From assembly GCA_025356335.1 (NCBI GenBank), contig JANXUF010000014.1, positions 62,001 through 126,000 of the forward strand: a stretch of 64,000 bases of DNA, read 5' to 3'. A program made the position numbers and the translations under genes. Source of the stretch: Actinomycetes bacterium (GTDB lineage Bacteria > Actinomycetota > Acidimicrobiia > Acidimicrobiales > Ilumatobacteraceae). The notes below the pieces were generated by a model, which ran no database searches, was not told the DNA's origin, and saw only the letters and a list, made by a program, of their open reading frames with translations. Shown piece by piece: positions 6,165-62,105 of this stretch (the first letter of the stretch is position 1; each line of letters starts with the position of its first letter).

Positions 6165-9100
6165 TCAGCCCTGGAACGTCTCCGGTCGACCGATATCGAG
6201 GTGATCGCCGAGGGTCGGACCGCCGTAGAGCCGCCCGCTGCCCGCGGTGCAGCCAAGACGGACGGCAAGGTCATGGTGGCGTTCGTCTGACACACCTTCG
6301 ACCCAGACGGGGATCGACAGCTCTGCGCCGAGAGCGACGGCATCAGCAGCGGATTTCAGGCCGTCCACCTGTGCTCGTTTCGTGTCGATGATCGAGCTGT
6401 CGAACGCCAGCGCATCCACGTGGAACCGGCGCAGAGTGGCGGCGCTGGCCCAGCCGGAACCGAGTCCGCCGACAGCGATTCGAGCACCCTTGGCCGCCAA
6501 CGATTGCAGTCCGTCGTAGGTGAGATCGGTGGCGACCTGAAGCTCGCTTTCCGTCATCTTCAGCCACAGGCTGCTACCGGCAACGCGCAGGCGGACGACG
6601 ACAGGTGCCAGCACGTCGAGGAACTCCGGATCAGCGAGCTGGTTGGCGCTGACATCAATCGCCAATTCGATCGATCGCCCGGCTCGGTGCCACTGCTCGA
6701 ACTGGAGGAACGCCGTCGGGTAGACGTAGCGAGCCAGATCGCCGAGCGCATGTGCGCTTTCCACGTCACCGATGAAGTCGACGAGATCCCAGGTACCGCC
6801 GTCCGGGCGCAGCCAACGAACCCTGACGTTCACCGCCACAACCGACCGGTCGGCCAGACTGACCACCGGCTCGTAGTAGACGACGAATTCGTTGCGGTTG
6901 ACTGCACGCTGAACTTCCGACCAGCTCGATGCCGGATGTCCGACCGCAGGAAGCACTGACCCCCGCTCGCGCTGGGGACGGTTGACGACGACAATCGCCA
7001 CGATCGCTCCGCCACTGTCGAAGATGATGTTGACGGTCGTCACCACCTCGACGATCGTGCCGTGGCGTGTGATCTGGTCGGCATCCGCAGTCCACCGACC
7101 CGACCGTTCGATCTCCGCTCGGACGGTCGCCAGATCGAACGGCTTCAGGGATCGGACGACGTTCTGCAACGTGTGCCCGAGTACCTCACGTTCCGCCCAG
7201 CCGTACAACCGTTCGGCTGCCGGGTTCCAGCTCAGGACGTGCAGGTCTGGATCGGTGACGATGACGGCGTCGGACACTTCGTTGATGACGCCGTTCACCA
7301 ATTGACGCATCAGATGCGGAGGGTCGATGATTTCGCGAACGCTGACGACGACGGCCGGGAGCTCATCGAAATCGACGTCTGCCGACCGAATCATGGTGAC
7401 GACCTCGGTACCGGTCGTGGTGCGAAGTGAGATCACTTGCGGCCCCGGCGACTGCCCGGTGGCCTGCATTTCCATGCGCGCCTGCGCCGCCGGATGCGAC
7501 GACGGGGCGATGACGTCGAGCACGTCGTGGCCGATGACGTCCGCGGGCTCAGCGGCCATCATCATGTCCAACATGCCGGCGTCGGCAGCGACGATGCGCG
7601 TGTCATCGTGGATGAACTCACCGGAACGTGGGTCGGACTCGGCTGTCGGTGCCTCTCCGTTGGATTCGCCCACCGGTGGCTCGAAGAGGTAGCCGACGCC
7701 CCGCACGGTGCGGAGCAGTCGCGGGCGTGATGGGTCCACCTCGATCTTCGATCGGAGGCGATAGATGTGCTCCGTGACGGTTGTCGCATTCTGCGAATCA
7801 GGCGCTGCGTGCCAGACCTCGTGCAGCAGTTCCCCCCGGGTGCAAACGCGACCGGCGTTCGTCGACAGGTACGCGAGGAGATCGAATTCTTTCGCCGAGA
7901 CATCGATGTCTTCGCCGTCGATCGAGACCATGCGTGCGCTGAGCCGCAACTCGAGCGCACCGAATCGTAGGACATTGGCGGGTTGACCTGGCGTGTCGTC
8001 GACTCGTTCGCTGATCCGAGTGAGCTCGACGACGGCTTCGCCGACGGCTGTCGCCCCGTCTCGCTCCGACTGGGAGACGCTGACAGGGCCATGGGCGGCC
8101 AACGTGGACGGATGGACACTGTGGAGGAGGTCTGTCAGCTCGGCAGCCCGCCGCCGGAGGTCGAGCATCGCACCGGTCTGATCGGCGAGCATCGTCAGCT
8201 GTGCGATCTGCTCGTCGGTGAAGTCGCGCGGAACGGTGTCGAGTACGCACAGGGTGCCGAGCGGAAGTCCTTCGCGACTGCGAATCGGAATGCCGGCATA
8301 CGCCCGGATGTTCGGCTCGCCGGTCACCAACGGGTTGTCGACGAACCGTTCGTCGAGGAGTACGTCGCGCACCAGGAACGGCTGACGCGGATGGGCGATG
8401 GCATGGTGGCAGAACGCGACCTCGCGCGATGTCTCGGTCGCTTCGATCCCGATGCGCGCCTTGAACCACTGGCGGTTGCTGTCCAACAACGAGACGAGGC
8501 CCATCGGAGTCGCCAGCAGCTGGGTCGCAAGCCGAACGACCGAGTCGAAGGCATCGTCTGCCGCCGTGTCGAGGATCTTGCATGCTCGCAGTGCAGCCAG
8601 GCGCTGGAGCTCTTCGAAGGAACCATCTGGCGACGCCAGGACCGCCACACCGCCGACGCTGCCCCCATAGGCGGCTACCAGTTCATCGAACGGCAGGGCA
8701 GGATTGAACAGCCACCCTTGGGCCAACCGGCATCCGAGGGCGACGAGCTGAGCTCGCTGGGATTCGGTCTCGACTCCCTCGGCGACGACCTGCAGGCCGA
8801 GTTCCTTGGCGAGGTTGATCACCGAACGCACGATCGCTGTATCGCTCGCATCGATTCCGAGACCGCTCACGAACGTCATGTCGATCTTCAGGGCGTCGAC
8901 GGGAAGTCGCGTGAGGTACTGGAAGGTTGCGTAGCCGGTTCCGAAATCGTCGATCACGAGATGCACGCCGAGGTCGTGCAAATGATGGAGAGGCACGAGT
9001 GCGCGATCGTCCAACAGCACGCTTTCGGTCACCTCGATCCACATGCGGTTCGGATTGATGTCGTGCCGCGCCAGTACGCTCGCGACTCGGCTGGTGATGT

Positions 9101-10364
9101 CCGGGTCGCGCAGCTGGACGACCGACATGTTGACGCTGATCTCCGCATCGATGCCGTGTGCAGCGAGGGCGGCGAGATCTGCACACGACCGATCGAGGAT
9201 CCATTCCCCGAGCTCGGCAATCGTCTCCGAGCGCTCGGCCAACGGGATGAACTCCGCCGGGTTGATCGCGCCGCGAACGGGATGGTTCCAACGGGCCAGG
9301 GCCTCGAGCTTTTCCAATCGGCCGGAGGCCAGCTCGACGATCGGCTGATAAGCGACGTAGGTCTGTCCGGACGACAGCGCTTCGCGGACATCGGCGGCGA
9401 AAACTGCGAGGTCCGCCCAGCTCGTCGACGCTTGGTTCGCCTCGAAGAAACGAAGCTGTCGGCCGCCGTTCATCTGCGCTTCGTTCAGCGCGATTTCGGC
9501 ATGATCGAACAGCATGTGCGCGTCGCCGGCATTGCGTCCCCATGCCGCTCCGATGCTCGCAGTGATCGAGATCAACGACCCGCCGATCTGGAACGGTTCG
9601 GCAATGACCCGCTCCACCCGAGCGGCGATCGCCCAGGCCTCTTCGATGTCGTGGACGCTACCGAGGATACCGAACCGGTCGCCGCTGAGTCGGGCCGCAA
9701 AGTCTCCCCCGCGGACGCAAGCAGCAAGGCGGGCACCGAACTCGACAAGGATCTGATCGCCGGCCTCTGAGCCGAGCCGGGCGTTGAGCCGTCCGAAGTA
9801 GTCGATGTCCACGACCACGACTGCCGACGACTTGTCGGACGGCGCAGCGTCGAGGTGGGCGAGGAGACCCGCTCGAAGCGGCAGCCCGGTGAGTTCGTCA
9901 GCCGCGTACCTGACGGGTTCATGGCGGGCTTTCGTCGCGACGTCGCCATTCACGTGGTTGTCGGCGCGGGTGTACTGCTCGTCGGCGGTACATGCGAGGG
10001 AGATGGCCTGCTTCGCCGGCTGGACGACGCCGACCGTTGAGGTCGTCCTGTTTGCAGCCGATCGGTCGAGGCGGACGAATGCGACGCGGGAGCCCTGATG
10101 ATCGATGTAGCGCACGCTGCGAAGCTCGAATTCCATCGGCCCAGACCGTGACGTAAGGACAACATGCGCGCCGTCGAAACTGCGATCGATCCATTTCGGA
10201 CCGGTGAACAGACGAGCCAGCGTGCTCCTCGACGAACGGTCGGCGATGTCGACGATCGATCGACCGACGATGTCCGACGTCTCGATATCGAGTTCCCGAA
10301 GGAGCGCTGGGCCGACCCAGAGGATGCGCCGGTCGGCTGTCTCGACGGTGATGGAGAGATTCAC
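6165..10364 (-). CDS. Giant signalling fusion: PAS-GGDEF-EAL-GAF-OmpR/PhoB DNA-binding-PAS-PAS-EAL-like (1399 aa)
   Basis: The start is a GTG (10362-10364) with GGGAG five bases upstream. Domains by residue: PAS about 8-100; GGDEF 155-305 with degenerate SGDRF (227-231) but an intact RxxD I-site (RGGD 218-221); EAL 325-565 with EAL (354-356), DDFGTG (472-477) and EGVE (529-532), so probably an active c-di-GMP phosphodiesterase. Next come GAF 585-740, an OmpR/PhoB winged helix 798-896 (AKEFDLLAYLS, TEHIYRLRSKIE, RTVRGVGYLF), PAS 912-1010 and PAS 1017-1130. The last part, 1145-1390, is a second EAL-like domain with VRV for EAL and GGLGSG for DDFGTG, hence catalytically dead. No membrane segment is seen. 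The combination suggests one protein that reads c-di-GMP or GTP, degrades c-di-GMP and binds DNA. A GTGCAAATGCAC palindrome lies upstream. Confidence 0.87.
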   Translation of the reverse strand: MNLSITVETADRRILWVGPALLRELDIETSDIVGRSIVDIADRSSRSTLARLFTGPKWIDRSFDGAHVVLTSRSGPMEFELRSVRYIDHQGSRVAFVRLDRSAANRTTSTVGVVQPAKQAISLACTADEQYTRADNHVNGDVATKARHEPVRYAADELTGLPLRAGLLAHLDAAPSDKSSAVVVVDIDYFGRLNARLGSEAGDQILVEFGARLAACVRGGDFAARLSGDRFGILGSVHDIEEAWAIAARVERVIAEPFQIGGSLISITASIGAAWGRNAGDAHMLFDHAEIALNEAQMNGGRQLRFFEANQASTSWADLAVFAADVREALSSGQTYVAYQPIVELASGRLEKLEALARWNHPVRGAINPAEFIPLAERSETIAELGEWILDRSCADLAALAAHGIDAEISVNMSVVQLRDPDITSRVASVLARHDINPNRMWIEVTESVLLDDRALVPLHHLHDLGVHLVIDDFGTGYATFQYLTRLPVDALKIDMTFVSGLGIDASDTAIVRSVINLAKELGLQVVAEGVETESQRAQLVALGCRLAQGWLFNPALPFDELVAAYGGSVGGVAVLASPDGSFEELQRLAALRACKILDTAADDAFDSVVRLATQLLATPMGLVSLLDSNRQWFKARIGIEATETSREVAFCHHAIAHPRQPFLVRDVLLDERFVDNPLVTGEPNIRAYAGIPIRSREGLPLGTLCVLDTVPRDFTDEQIAQLTMLADQTGAMLDLRRRAAELTDLLHSVHPSTLAAHGPVSVSQSERDGATAVGEAVVELTRISERVDDTPGQPANVLRFGALELRLSARMVSIDGEDIDVSAKEFDLLAYLSTNAGRVCTRGELLHEVWHAAPDSQNATTVTEHIYRLRSKIEVDPSRPRLLRTVRGVGYLFEPPVGESNGEAPTAESDPRSGEFIHDDTRIVAADAGMLDMMMAAEPADVIGHDVLDVIAPSSHPAAQARMEMQATGQSPGPQVISLRTTTGTEVVTMIRSADVDFDELPAVVVSVREIIDPPHLMRQLVNGVINEVSDAVIVTDPDLHVLSWNPAAERLYGWAEREVLGHTLQNVVRSLKPFDLATVRAEIERSGRWTADADQITRHGTIVEVVTTVNIIFDSGGAIVAIVVVNRPQRERGSVLPAVGHPASSWSEVQRAVNRNEFVVYYEPVVSLADRSVVAVNVRVRWLRPDGGTWDLVDFIGDVESAHALGDLARYVYPTAFLQFEQWHRAGRSIELAIDVSANQLADPEFLDVLAPVVVRLRVAGSSLWLKMTESELQVATDLTYDGLQSLAAKGARIAVGGLGSGWASAATLRRFHVDALAFDSSIIDTKRAQVDGLKSAADAVALGAELSIPVWVEGVSDERHHDLAVRLGCTAGSGRLYGGPTLGDHLDIGRPETFQG

Positions 10365-10470
10365 TTGGGCTCCCTGCACGGAGGGGACTACCCGGACCCG
10401 GACGGCGTGCGTACACCATACCACAGCGCCCGTGCAACGCTGGGTGTGGTGGATGCACCCGGGAGCAACC

Positions 10471-10482
10471 GTGCATTTGCAC
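10471..10482. promoter_or_regulatory. GTGCAAATGCAC palindrome upstream of the GGDEF/EAL fusion
   Basis: On the minus strand this reads GTGCAAATGCAC, about 107 bp before the GTG start of the fusion gene. The same 12-mer lies upstream of the two paralogous response regulators at 44.9 kb and 60.9 kb. It is a perfect palindrome apart from its central AA. No binder is known; a shared regulator is inferred. It lies in the 290-bp gap between this gene and the divergent AlkB-like gene. Confidence 0.6.
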
Positions 10483-10654
10483 CGACGAGCGCGTCCACGA
10501 CTCGTCGCCCTCGGAGGGACCGTCCCGTTGAGCCGGCGTGCGGAACCGACGTAACACAGGATTCGCTGCCCTGCTCGGGTGCGCATCGCCGGACCGGTGT
10601 CGCCCACGCAAGCAGCGGGCAACGTTGTGACACCCAGGGTCTACGTTCGCGTAT

Positions 10655-11362
10655 ATGAGCACAGATGCCACGTGGCTGATGCAGGAGCCGACCGTCGAAC
10701 GTGTCGCCCTCGACACGGATTGCTGGGTCGACGTCGTTCGAGGATTCGTCCCTGACCATCGGCGTGTTCACGACGATCTGGCGAGCGGCGCCCGATGGCA
10801 GAACGGGCGAACGTTCTACTACGAGCGCTGGGTCGATGATGTCCGTCGCAGCGCTACGCAGTCGGGCGCCGGTCGTCATCCTGCGCTGATCGAATCGGAG
10901 ACGTGGTTGTTCCGCCGGTACCGCGTGCGGTTTTCGGGTGTCGTGCTCAGTGAGTACCGCGACGCACGCGAGGGGCTCGGCTTTCATCGCGACCGGGGTA
11001 TGACGTGGCTCGACGAGACACTCGTCGCCCTGCTGACCTTCGGCGGTCAGCGGCCGTGGCTGATGCGGCCCGATACCGGCCGGCCGCCGATCGACGCCGA
11101 CGGTGCCAGCGGGTCGATCGATCTCGCTCCTGCTGGTGGTGATCTGCTGGTGATGGGCGGGCGTTGTCAACGCAGTTGGCTGCACGCCGTGCCGACCGTC
11201 CCGTACGCAGTCGAGAGTCGGATCTCCGCGCAGTGGCGTTGGACGTCGAGACGTGGCGAGCCCGACACCGAGCCGAAACCTCGTGACCCTCGGTACTTCT
11301 CCAAACCAGCTGGCGGAGCGCCCCGGCTCCCCATCGCCGGTGACGACCCGCACAGGACGTGA
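10655..11362 (+). CDS. AlkB-like 2-oxoglutarate/Fe(II) dioxygenase
   Basis: A 235-residue protein with the AlkB-type double-stranded beta-helix pattern. The Fe ligands H and D are in LGFHRDRGM, the distal His in QRSWLHAVP, and the 2-oxoglutarate-binding Arg region in RISAQWRW. YRDAREGLGFHRD resembles the nucleotide-lid side of AlkB homologues. Such enzymes remove alkyl groups from DNA or RNA bases by oxidation; some bacterial AlkB-like proteins act on other substrates. It stands alone, divergent from the signalling fusion, and I saw no SOS-type operator. Confidence 0.82.
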   Translation: MSTDATWLMQEPTVERVALDTDCWVDVVRGFVPDHRRVHDDLASGARWQNGRTFYYERWVDDVRRSATQSGAGRHPALIESETWLFRRYRVRFSGVVLSEYRDAREGLGFHRDRGMTWLDETLVALLTFGGQRPWLMRPDTGRPPIDADGASGSIDLAPAGGDLLVMGGRCQRSWLHAVPTVPYAVESRISAQWRWTSRRGEPDTEPKPRDPRYFSKPAGGAPRLPIAGDDPHRT

Positions 11363-44945: not shown

Positions 44946-44959
44946 GGTGCAAATGCACC
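44946..44959. promoter_or_regulatory. GGTGCAAATGCACC palindrome upstream of response regulator A
   Basis: A 14-bp palindrome around the 12-mer shared with 10471-10482 and 60924-60935. Downstream the sequence is clearly homologous to the region before response regulator B: a TTCACTTT-N-AGCGTC block and AGCGCT within 45 bp, then GGTTCTGTGGTGGTT about 128 bp on, and GAAAGGGTGCA at the ribosome-binding site. The 420-bp gap 44759-45177 therefore holds a conserved, duplicated control region rather than a gene. Confidence 0.65.
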
Positions 44960-45177: not shown

Positions 45178-45228
45178 GTGATCGAGCAGCAATGGCTCCC
45201 GGCACTCCGTGAGATCGTCGATGTTTGA
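45178..45228 (+). CDS. Possible 16-residue leader peptide coupled to response regulator A
   Basis: GTG start with GAAAGGG six bases upstream; reads MIEQQWLPALREIVDV and stops in an ATGTTTGA overlap with the regulator's ATG. The ribosome-binding site fits this small frame rather than the regulator itself, so the regulator may depend on translational coupling. In the paralogue at 61 kb the same ribosome-binding site drives an in-frame N-terminal extension. It could be a bypassed or chance frame. Confidence 0.4.
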   Translation: MIEQQWLPALREIVDV

Positions 45229-45946
45229 CCAGGTGTCGACGCCGATCGGCGTGTTGATCGTCGATGACCATCGGATGTTCGCCGAGAGCCTGGCACGTCT
45301 CCTCGACGACGATGATCGCATCACCGTGGTCGGCGTCGCCAACTCTGGCACCGCAGCTCTCAGCCAATTGACACGGCTGAAACCTCAGGTCGTGCTCGTC
45401 GACTTCCAGATGCCGGACCAAGATGGCGTCGCCGTCACGGTCGCCATCAAGCAGTCGAGCCCCGCAACCAAGGTCGTGATGCTCTCGGAGTCCACAGACG
45501 ATCGGATCGTGTTCGCCGCGTTGGAGGCCGGCTGCTCGGGATTCCTGACCAAGGATCGCGCCGCATCGGACGTCATCGAAGCGGTGTGTGTCGCCGATGC
45601 CGGCGGTGCGACCGTCTCACCGATGATCCTCGCCCGGCTACTCCTCGCTCGAGGGCCCGCCCCGCACACCCTCGGATCAGATCTCAGTGATCGCGAAATA
45701 GAGGTATTGAGACTGTTCTCGGAAGGTTTCACGAACCGGGTCATCGCTGCGCAACTGTTCCTCAGCGTCAACACGATCCGCAACTACGTCAATGCCATAC
45801 TTCGAAAACTCGATGCCCACACCAAACTGCAGGCAGTCTTCATCGCCAACCAGATCGGCTTGCTCGACCGCCCGCACACCCCGGAGTCCTCCGTACCGAC
45901 CGTCACATCGGCAACCACGCGACACCGCCTCCCTCGGTGCCGATGA
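45221..45946 (+). CDS. Orphan NarL/LuxR-family response regulator A
   Basis: About 241 residues. Receiver: GVLIVDDHRMFAESLARLL, phospho-Asp in VVLVDFQMPDQDG, Ser/Thr position VVMLSESTDD, Lys in GFLTKDRAAS. LuxR HTH: LSDREIEVLRLFSEGFTNRVIAAQLF and NTIRNYVNAILRKLDAHTKLQAV (cores shown). No kinase gene is adjacent. It is a close paralogue of the regulator at 61-62 kb; the two differ mainly in the tail and the N-terminus. A GTG at 45209 is an alternative start. The upstream palindrome is shared with the GGDEF/EAL fusion gene. Confidence 0.9.
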   Translation: MFDQVSTPIGVLIVDDHRMFAESLARLLDDDDRITVVGVANSGTAALSQLTRLKPQVVLVDFQMPDQDGVAVTVAIKQSSPATKVVMLSESTDDRIVFAALEAGCSGFLTKDRAASDVIEAVCVADAGGATVSPMILARLLLARGPAPHTLGSDLSDREIEVLRLFSEGFTNRVIAAQLFLSVNTIRNYVNAILRKLDAHTKLQAVFIANQIGLLDRPHTPESSVPTVTSATTRHRLPRCR

Positions 45947-59572: not shown

Positions 59573-60799
59573 TCACGCGCCCTGGACGATTGCCCGCCGT
59601 GGGAGACGGCGGATCCACGCGCTGTGGCTGCTGACATCGCCCCCGTCGGGTCTGGCCAGCCATGGGTACGGATGAAGCGCGACGATGTCGAGGTGTGCAG
59701 CTCGGCGTTGGAAGCCAGGGACAGGCGCAAAGGTCGCTGCGAGCTTCACCCCGTGCAAATCGGTCGCCGGGTCACCGAGCAGCAGCCGCAGAGGACGGTG
59801 CTCAGCGAGTTCTGCCAACGTCTGGGCGATGAACGTGAGCCGTTTCGTACTCAGGCGCAGCTGTTCGAGCAGCGGCTCGTCGAAGACGAACACCGCAGGT
59901 TTCGTCGGCCATGCCACCAGCGCAGGATCGCCTGCTCCCATCGATTCTGCGGTCAACCAGACCTCTTCGGGTGTGCCCGTCACCACGGGCATTTCCGGGC
60001 CGACGAGATCTGCGCCGGAGCGGAGCAACGCATCCTCCAGCGCTCGTCCGGACTGTGCAGCCGGCCAGTTCTCGATCGGACATGCCGATGCGCGCGGACA
60101 CGAGGCGCACCACGCCGCCGCGCGCCGTTCGACTTGCCATCGCGAGAACCCGTATGGTTTGGAGGTCATCGCTCCTACCGACCATTGCCAGCCGTACCGG
60201 TTGGCCGCTCGTGACCCGTCGAGCAGATGACGGAACATCCATTCCTCGCCATTGCGCCAGTCGTGCCCGGCGCGAACCGTCCAGTGCGAGGCCAGCCACA
60301 TGCGCGTCTGGTTCACCAGCCAGCCCGTCTGCTCCAACTCGTCGCGCACACGCGACATGCACACCATGTCCTCATCGACCGGCTCGGGCCACGTCGGTGC
60401 CCCAATCGCTGGTTCTCGTCGTAGCGGACGGCGGCTGCGGGTTCCGACCCGTGCGTACAGGTGCCGGGCGTACTCCTGCCACCACAGCTCGTCGACAAAC
60501 CGCCGTCGATCCGCAACCGGTGCGCCCCCGACGGCGGCGATCGCCTCTGCCAGGGTGATCATCCCGTGGCGGATGTAGGGCGATAGGACCGTCGCCGTCC
60601 GGCTGGACGGCGGATCGACCATGCTGCGTCGTTGTGCATAGCCGGCCACATCGAGCGCTGCAAGCGCTTCGTCCGCAGCTCGCTGTCCCCCGCGCCGAGC
60701 CGGACGCGCGGTGGTGCCCGCGTCGCACACCAGATGTCCGAGATGTCGTGTGACCCACTCCGTCTCGGATACGGGTGTCGGGATCGGTAGTTCGAGCAC
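59573..60799 (-). CDS. Photolyase/cryptochrome-like FAD protein with apparently swapped domain order and four Cys
   Basis: About 408 residues. Residues 65-245 carry the FAD-binding helical domain: LSPYIRHG, ELWWQEYARHLY, NQTRMWLASHW and NRYGWQWSVG. Cys147, Cys231, Cys234 and Cys240 (WCASCPRASACP) resemble the Cys set that holds a [4Fe-4S] cluster in FeS-type bacterial photolyases. After it, residues 278-395 (VWLTAESMGAGDPAL, VFVFDEPLLEQLRLSTKR) resemble the alpha/beta domain that normally comes first. So the two halves look swapped. Function (DNA repair or light sensing) is open. GTG start at 60797-60799; the frame is open further upstream across the palindrome. Confidence 0.75.
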   Translation of the reverse strand: MLELPIPTPVSETEWVTRHLGHLVCDAGTTARPARRGGQRAADEALAALDVAGYAQRRSMVDPPSSRTATVLSPYIRHGMITLAEAIAAVGGAPVADRRRFVDELWWQEYARHLYARVGTRSRRPLRREPAIGAPTWPEPVDEDMVCMSRVRDELEQTGWLVNQTRMWLASHWTVRAGHDWRNGEEWMFRHLLDGSRAANRYGWQWSVGAMTSKPYGFSRWQVERRAAAWCASCPRASACPIENWPAAQSGRALEDALLRSGADLVGPEMPVVTGTPEEVWLTAESMGAGDPALVAWPTKPAVFVFDEPLLEQLRLSTKRLTFIAQTLAELAEHRPLRLLLGDPATDLHGVKLAATFAPVPGFQRRAAHLDIVALHPYPWLARPDGGDVSSHSAWIRRLPRRAIVQGA

Positions 60800-60923
60800 G
60801 TGACCAGTTGTACCGGTCTCGACGTGCGGATCAGTCGGCGTGGGCGACCCGTCCTCGGCCGCCCCCGCCCTCCTCAGGTCGGCAGCCGGACTTGGCTGCC
60901 GGTCGATTGCACCAGGACGACCG

Positions 60924-60935
60924 GTGCAAATGCAC
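60924..60935. promoter_or_regulatory. GTGCAAATGCAC palindrome upstream of response regulator B
   Basis: Third copy of the 12-mer. The next 215 bases up to the start of regulator B are recognisably homologous to the leader of regulator A (TTCACTTT block, AGCGCT, GGTTCTGTGGTGGTT, AGGGCGAAT, GAAAGGGTGCA), while stretches between diverge. The blocks keep nearly the same spacing (128 versus 131 bp from palindrome to GGTTCTG), which suggests they are functional sites. Confidence 0.65.
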
Positions 60936-61151
60936 TGTTTCACTTTGAGCGTCGGTCCGAGCGCTCAACGAGGCGTCAGTCGTACTATGATTGTTCTCCA
61001 GGGCTGTTTTTATCGTCTCTCCGCACGGCTGGTGCTGGAGCACATCGGGCGACGGTTCTGTGGTGGTTTCGGTACTCGTTCCACCATGCAAGGGCGATAT
61101 TCAGGGCGAATGCGGTCCACCGGCAGGTCGAGTCCGTTGAAAGGGTGCAGC

Positions 61152-62105
61152 ATGTTCGATCATGACGTGAGTGGCGAATTTGTCGACACGATTCCGGCTG
61201 CACGCGTGGCCTTCGACCCCCGACGATTGATCGAGTCGGGCGACGTCGAGACACGCGTCGGGTTCGAACGCTTGCGGTCGGTCGACGAACTGACCGACGA
61301 CACACCATGCAGGGATACGCAGGCGATGGTGTTGGTCGAAGCCGTGGCGGGCGAACGATGCTGGACGCGATCCGTGGGGAAGTCGATGTTCGACGACTCA
61401 TCGTCGCCGATCGGGCTGTTGATCGTCGACGACCATCGGATGTTCGCCGAGAGCCTGGCACGTCTCCTCGACGACGATGATCGCATCAGCGTGGTCGGCG
61501 TCGCTGACTCCGGTAGCGCTGCACTCAGTCTGGTGAAACGGCTGCAACCCCACGTTGTGCTCGTCGACTTTCAGATGCCGGACCAGGATGGCGTCGCCGT
61601 CACGGTCGCCATCAAGCAGTTGAGCCCTGCGACCAAGGTGGTGATGCTCTCAGAATCCATGGATGAACGGATCGTGTTCGCCGCTTTGGAGGCCGGCTGC
61701 TCGGGATTCCTGACCAAGGATCGCGCCGCATCGGACGTCATCGAAGCGGTGTGTGTCGCCGATGCCGGCGGTGCCACCGTCTCACCGATGATCCTCGCCC
61801 GGTTACTGCACACTCACGGTCCCGCCCCGTACACGCTCGGCTCGGATCTCAGCAATCGTGAAATGGAAGTACTGAGACTGGTCGCAGAAGGTTCGACGAA
61901 CCGGGTCATCGCAGCGCAACTGTTCCTCAGCGTCAACACGATCCGCAACTACGTCAATTCGATACTCGGCAAACTCAACGCCCACACCAAGTTGCAAGCC
62001 GTGTACATCGCCGGCCAGATCGGCCTGCTCGACCACCCGTACTCGCCGTCGAACGGCGCACGACACTGCTTACCCCAACGGCGACACCTCAGCAACTCAC
62101 GCTGA
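61152..62105 (+). CDS. Orphan NarL/LuxR-family response regulator B with N-terminal extension
   Basis: 317 residues from the ATG at 61152, which has GAAAGGG seven bases upstream. Residues 1-78 are an extension with no recognised domain (MFDHDVSGEFVDTIPAARVA at the start). From MFDDSSSPIGLLIVDDHRM (ATG 61386) onward it parallels regulator A: phospho-Asp in DFQMPDQDG, Lys in FLTKDRAAS, LuxR HTH LSNREMEVLRLVAEGSTNRV and NTIRNYVNSILGKLNAHTKL. Translation could also start at 61386, but no ribosome-binding site is clear there. No kinase gene is adjacent. Paralogue of the regulator at 45 kb. Confidence 0.85.
   Translation: MFDHDVSGEFVDTIPAARVAFDPRRLIESGDVETRVGFERLRSVDELTDDTPCRDTQAMVLVEAVAGERCWTRSVGKSMFDDSSSPIGLLIVDDHRMFAESLARLLDDDDRISVVGVADSGSAALSLVKRLQPHVVLVDFQMPDQDGVAVTVAIKQLSPATKVVMLSESMDERIVFAALEAGCSGFLTKDRAASDVIEAVCVADAGGATVSPMILARLLHTHGPAPYTLGSDLSNREMEVLRLVAEGSTNRVIAAQLFLSVNTIRNYVNSILGKLNAHTKLQAVYIAGQIGLLDHPYSPSNGARHCLPQRRHLSNSR

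Follow-up and report, generated by a model that had tools for sequence, protein, structure and literature searches.

We analysed a 64,000-nt stretch of contig JANXUF010000014.1 (GenBank assembly GCA_025356335.1; hereafter the window) from an actinomycete of the family Ilumatobacteraceae and describe a gene for a cyclic di-GMP (c-di-GMP) phosphodiesterase that also carries an OmpR-type winged helix-turn-helix (wHTH) domain. Judged by sequence, the product is a real, rare and lineage-restricted variant of a phosphodiesterase with its own DNA-binding domain, in which the receiver (REC) of a VieA-like phosphodiesterase response regulator appears to have been replaced by a degenerate GGDEF (GGDEF*)-EAL-GAF module, the original EAL domain having died. 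The gene is a single open frame without an internal stop from 10364 to 6165 on the minus strand of the window and encodes 1399 aa, as the first-pass annotation had described except for the strand, which it did not give.

Domains were called with Pfam, and their order was GGDEF (2e-24), EAL (EAL1), GAF (1e-18), Trans_reg_C (1.7e-22), PAS (6e-13) and a second EAL (EAL2), the EAL model being scored twice (1.6e-111). These six had all been listed in the first-pass annotation, but its N-terminal PAS and its first PAS after the wHTH were not scored by Pfam in the window protein; the latter was scored in homologues and is missing from the relatives L038 and L039. All eight catalytic positions of EAL1 are present (E354, N412, E444, D472, D473, K493, E529 and Q549), and its relatives in the PDB include PdeL (7pk5). 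The corresponding positions of EAL2 are occupied by N1179, D1237, K1269, G1299, G1300, A1320, E1356 and S1376, a residue comparison that bears out the earlier description of a second EAL lacking the EAL and DDFG residues. The GGDEF active-site motif reads SGDRF here and SADRF in L038 and L039, so that neither matches the GG(D/E)EF of a bifunctional GGDEF-EAL enzyme. The RxxD I-site that had been noted beside it is indeed present as RGGD but varies among relatives (IGGD, VADE), and we rejected it as a regulatory feature since it is not conserved in the family. The best solved relative of the wHTH was RegX3, with further matches to the DNA-binding domains of MtrA and PhoB. AlphaFold2 models of both halves, built on five-sequence alignments (mean predicted local distance difference test, pLDDT, 52 and 56), were used only for the wHTH topology and the fold of EAL2, in which a fold search recognized a retained EAL barrel (TM ∼0.75 to the target, from a model of low overall confidence).

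The origin of the C-terminal half was indicated by searching the order with an alignment of the wHTH-PAS-PAS region; the search gave full-length matches in other families. Six of them were REC-wHTH(OmpR)-PAS-PAS-EAL response regulators of Acidimicrobiales by Pfam (L095-L098, L100 and L101), two bearing an added GGDEF and one, L101, having PAS domains that Pfam left unscored; we found no description of such regulators in the papers searched. The C-terminal ∼600 residues of the window protein aligned with five of the six end to end over ∼590-615 residues at 32-38% identity, and with L101 in two pieces. The C-terminal half (wHTH-PAS-PAS-EAL2) is thus homologous to these regulators along its whole length. 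No Response_reg match was obtained by Pfam in the window protein, and the GGDEF*-EAL-GAF module occupies the place of the receiver. The first-pass remark that the wHTH follows no receiver therefore stands for the protein itself but not for its ancestry, which by this homology had one. In the relatives the EAL domains are intact, with the EAL, DDFG, K, E and Q residues kept, and the REC, EAL and HTH content is of the VieA type, a combination that the window protein, having no REC, does not show. In L096 the receiver seems to be without its phospho-acceptor Asp (VIVALALPDGSG). A receiver-less, unfused form of the same module was found at L099 (2883-5931), where a PAS-wHTH-PAS-PAS gene adjoins a GGDEF-EAL gene. 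At a threshold of 1e-50, no additional wHTH-PAS-PAS match emerged from a sample of 257 phylum genomes.

In a tree of EAL domains, the EAL2 sequences clustered together (100/100); their long-stemmed branch arose among the response-regulator EALs, and these together (with one GGDEF-EAL protein) were separated from the EAL1 domains at 100/100. Because EAL2 groups with the response-regulator EALs and apart from EAL1, it is not a copy of EAL1; most simply, it once served as the output domain of a phosphodiesterase response regulator, and the simplest order of events has the front EAL arriving first and EAL2 losing its catalysis later.

How the parts may work together can be proposed from this arrangement. 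EAL1 would hydrolyse c-di-GMP, and its occupancy or turnover, together with ligands of the GAF and PAS domains, would replace phosphorylation as the input governing wHTH dimer geometry and its binding to DNA, in the manner of a PdeL-like trigger phosphodiesterase; EAL2, freed from catalysis, would be retained as a dimerization or partner-binding scaffold, and local activation and autoregulation could follow. Since the EAL1-GAF block stands where the relatives have their signal-receiving domain, EAL1 and GAF most likely set the wHTH state jointly, with EAL2 as the scaffold. We consider the chances about even that the protein is such a one-polypeptide cytoplasmic phosphodiesterase and transcription regulator of the PdeL kind, with the front module replacing the phosphorylation input. 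The chief rival is a dual-output sensor without c-di-GMP feedback, in which GAF and PAS ligands would drive the phosphodiesterase (EAL1) and transcription (wHTH) independently. The GAF and PAS domains on either side of the wHTH are consistent with it, whereas the location of EAL1-GAF exactly at the input position of the relatives favours an input role, and we regard independent outputs as possible though somewhat unlikely.

Several observations weigh against a PdeL-like regulator acting as one polypeptide. The C61 paralogue in the same genome (L021:111-3634) lies in two frames, with an in-frame stop codon (TAA) between GAF and wHTH that parts EAL-GAF from wHTH-PAS-EAL2, so that the physical fusion is not always retained. 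In genome G014 the wHTH-PAS-PAS part is a separate gene that follows one for GGDEF-EAL, and in G054 the EAL-GAF half is present with no wHTH attached, which implies that the halves can function separately. The low support within the half-trees described below (60-75), their shallow alignments and the low confidence of the models add to these points. The C61 paralogue has an additional frameshift in its EAL2 and may represent a two-gene arrangement, a copy in decay or the product of sequencing errors.

The fusion of EAL and Trans_reg_C in one protein, for which the first-pass annotation had proposed an architecture search, recurs. L038 (JAOBWO010000213, 1431 aa) and L039 (JAOBWQ010000510, 1547 aa) are one-frame fusions like the window protein, L036 (JANXUX010000053, 72% identical) is a fused frame on a contig that begins inside GAF, and L040 has EAL-GAF-wHTH fused without PAS-EAL2 and with a frameshift in its EAL. 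A split at the GAF/wHTH junction, which had been named in advance as a sign of two wrongly joined genes, was seen in the C61 paralogue by way of a single TAA, but several genomes carry the unsplit form, which is the commoner one within this small family. Trees of the EAL-GAF half and of the wHTH half had matching topologies, with C61 between the two fused groups (unrooted, with low support), and for this reason the C61 split is probably the derived state.

Whether the C-terminal half is maintained was assessed by the ratio of nonsynonymous to synonymous substitution rates (dN/dS, Nei-Gojobori). Between L038 and L039 it was 0.09 for EAL1, 0.14 for GAF, 0.21 for the wHTH, 0.13 for PAS and 0.29 for EAL2, and between the window protein and L036 it was 0.11 for the wHTH and 0.14 for EAL2, with dS near saturation; purifying selection thus acts on all domains. 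These values bear on a second rival, a recent mosaic in which wHTH-PAS-EAL2 would be a decaying passenger on a pure phosphodiesterase. The dead EAL2, the split and frameshifted C61 paralogue and the G054 protein, whose front half is 67% identical over 488 aa and joined to PAS-GGDEF in place of the wHTH part, would all suit such decay, but ratios well below 1 in the wHTH, PAS and EAL2 of two independent pairs and an invariant wHTH helix make it rather improbable. At L022:7412-11960, an EAL-GAF 67% identical to that of the window protein is followed by PAS-GGDEF instead of the wHTH, its own GGDEF being broken across two frames.

The first-pass annotation had suggested that the pseudo-EAL is a ligand sensor, and EAL2 could in principle be a non-catalytic receptor of the FimX/LapD kind that reports the c-di-GMP level to the wHTH. 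It does retain the EAL fold without the catalytic residues, as FimX and LapD-like domains do, and every EAL2 domain retains the arginine-tryptophan pair that follows the EAL motif (VNVRVRW, RTHTRW, VEARIRW). Against this, the N and DD positions are lost, K and Q are also lost in the window protein and L036, and the EAL, DDFG and N positions vary between relatives with no conserved ligand set visible. With most ligand and metal positions gone, the sensor proposal found no support, and we consider a receptor role very unlikely.

The integrity of the frame itself was supported by several features. The GTG start coincides with the start point of homologues (N-termini MNLMVRV), and codon-position GC content is even along the entire 1399 aa. 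An in-frame scan of the GAF-wHTH linker for starts found no ATG or GTG to launch a separate gene, and an internal start giving two proteins was rejected since the linker contains only TTGs without a convincing Shine-Dalgarno (SD) sequence. An assembly artefact uniting two genes, which the fragmented source genome (156 contigs, 5.57 Mb) and the split of its own paralogue at the same junction might suggest, we reject as scarcely credible, given the same one-frame fusion in the separate metagenome-assembled genomes JAOBWO, JAOBWQ and JANXUX at 72-47% identity, the uniform codon signal and the startless linker.

We also considered the 12-mer GTGCAAATGCAC at 10471, which had been put forward as the first target for the wHTH. 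It lies in a divergent intergenic region (10365-10655) shared with a 2-oxoglutarate-Fe(II) oxygenase-like gene, whose Pfam match is weak and falls short of the curated cut-off. The genome holds three exact copies, all intergenic and all within the window (10471-10482, 44947-44958 and 60924-60935), the other two being in duplicated promoters that serve a pair of REC-LuxR regulators (45209-45946 and the frame ending at 62105); a divergent GGDEF gene shares one of these promoters and a photolyase-like gene the other. Because these two copies precede LuxR-type regulators, the wHTH need not bind GTGCAAATGCAC; the site was also absent upstream of L038 and L039, and the proposed pairing is left unsupported. 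OmpR-type domains usually bind direct repeats, unlike this near-palindrome, and a LuxR-type dimer is no less plausible as its binder than the wHTH. As a family-wide motif GTGCAAATGCAC is weak: the 222 genomes contain 61 exact matches, and most of them have one or none. It is possible that the three copies mark a small shared regulon of c-di-GMP genes. The photolyase/cryptochrome-like gene (59573-60943) is arranged divergently with one of the LuxR-type regulators, perhaps a sign of light input.

Table 1. Features of the gene, its upstream site and its receiver-bearing relatives (window positions unless a locus is named)
Feature	Position	Strand	Evidence or remark
Whole gene	6165..10364	-	1399 aa; GTG start at 10364; SD GGGAG at 10370-10374, 5 nt upstream
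GGDEF, degenerate	9462..9902	-	Pfam PF00990; SGDRF residues 227-231, I-site RGGD 218-221
EAL1, catalytic residues complete	8700..9395	-	Pfam PF00563, 239 bits
GAF	8169..8558	-	Pfam PF01590
Linker, GAF to wHTH	7974..8132	-	No in-frame ATG/GTG; location of the TAA in the C61 paralogue
OmpR/PhoB winged helix	7683..7973	-	Pfam PF00486; phmmer 4.7e-21 to 2oqr (RegX3)
Recognition helix VTEHIYRLRSK	7746..7778	-	Invariant across fused relatives
First post-wHTH PAS-like region	7335..7622	-	Homologues with two PAS stretches; PAS-like strand order in low-confidence model
PAS	6984..7292	-	Pfam PF13426/PF00989
EAL2, catalytically dead	6216..6917	-	Pfam, 142 bits; residues; EAL barrel by fold search; tree
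GTGCAAATGCAC near-palindrome	10471..10482	.	107 bp upstream of start; one of three genome copies
REC-wHTH(OmpR)-PAS-PAS-EAL regulators	L095:1923-5180, L096:3450-6173, L097:4271-6481, L098:4024-6333, L100:206-3349, L101:3475-5697		Several Acidimicrobiales families

The architecture is rare. Of the 222 genomes of the family, 4 had the wHTH-PAS module, and among samples of 397 order and 397 phylum genomes the complete GAF-wHTH combination was recovered from the source genome only, with no complete case outside the family. No protein of the same architecture was among the best matches in plasmid searches, and no description of an EAL and an OmpR-type wHTH in one protein was found in the literature searched, subscription papers being outside its coverage.

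The closest described parallels share only part of this design. PdeL (YahA) of Escherichia coli, a trigger phosphodiesterase, joins an active EAL to a LuxR-type HTH, and its activation of transcription is subject to interference from c-di-GMP (PMC5052742). Like the window protein it unites a DNA-binding domain and an intact EAL, but its HTH is N-terminal to a single EAL with no GGDEF, GAF, PAS or second EAL, whereas the window protein has no LuxR/GerE-type HTH, and its OmpR-type winged helix lies between a catalytically intact EAL and a dead one. VieA of Vibrio cholerae is REC-EAL-HTH (PMC4352251) and likewise joins a phosphodiesterase and a DNA-binding domain in one polypeptide; it retains the receiver, which the window protein with its two EALs lacks. 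The REC-wHTH-PAS-PAS-EAL regulators are VieA-like in content and homologous to the window protein from the wHTH to the EAL end, but have a receiver and an intact EAL. Stand-alone response regulators such as RegX3, MtrA and PhoB have the winged helix in common with the window protein, which differs in having no N-terminal receiver and in its attached enzymatic and sensory domains.

Few proteins combine c-di-GMP degradation with control of transcription, and those described, PdeL and VieA, are gammaproteobacterial. The OmpR-type version and its receiver-bearing relatives form a natural before-and-after pair, with which it can be asked how a winged helix normally switched by phosphorylation comes under a second-messenger enzyme and why a dead EAL is kept. 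Tentatively, we suggest that one actinobacterial lineage changed its input currency: an active phosphodiesterase module would have taken the place of the receiver in an OmpR-type phosphodiesterase response regulator, c-di-GMP may have replaced phosphate as the direct switch of the wHTH, and the original EAL would now serve as a structural pseudo-enzyme.

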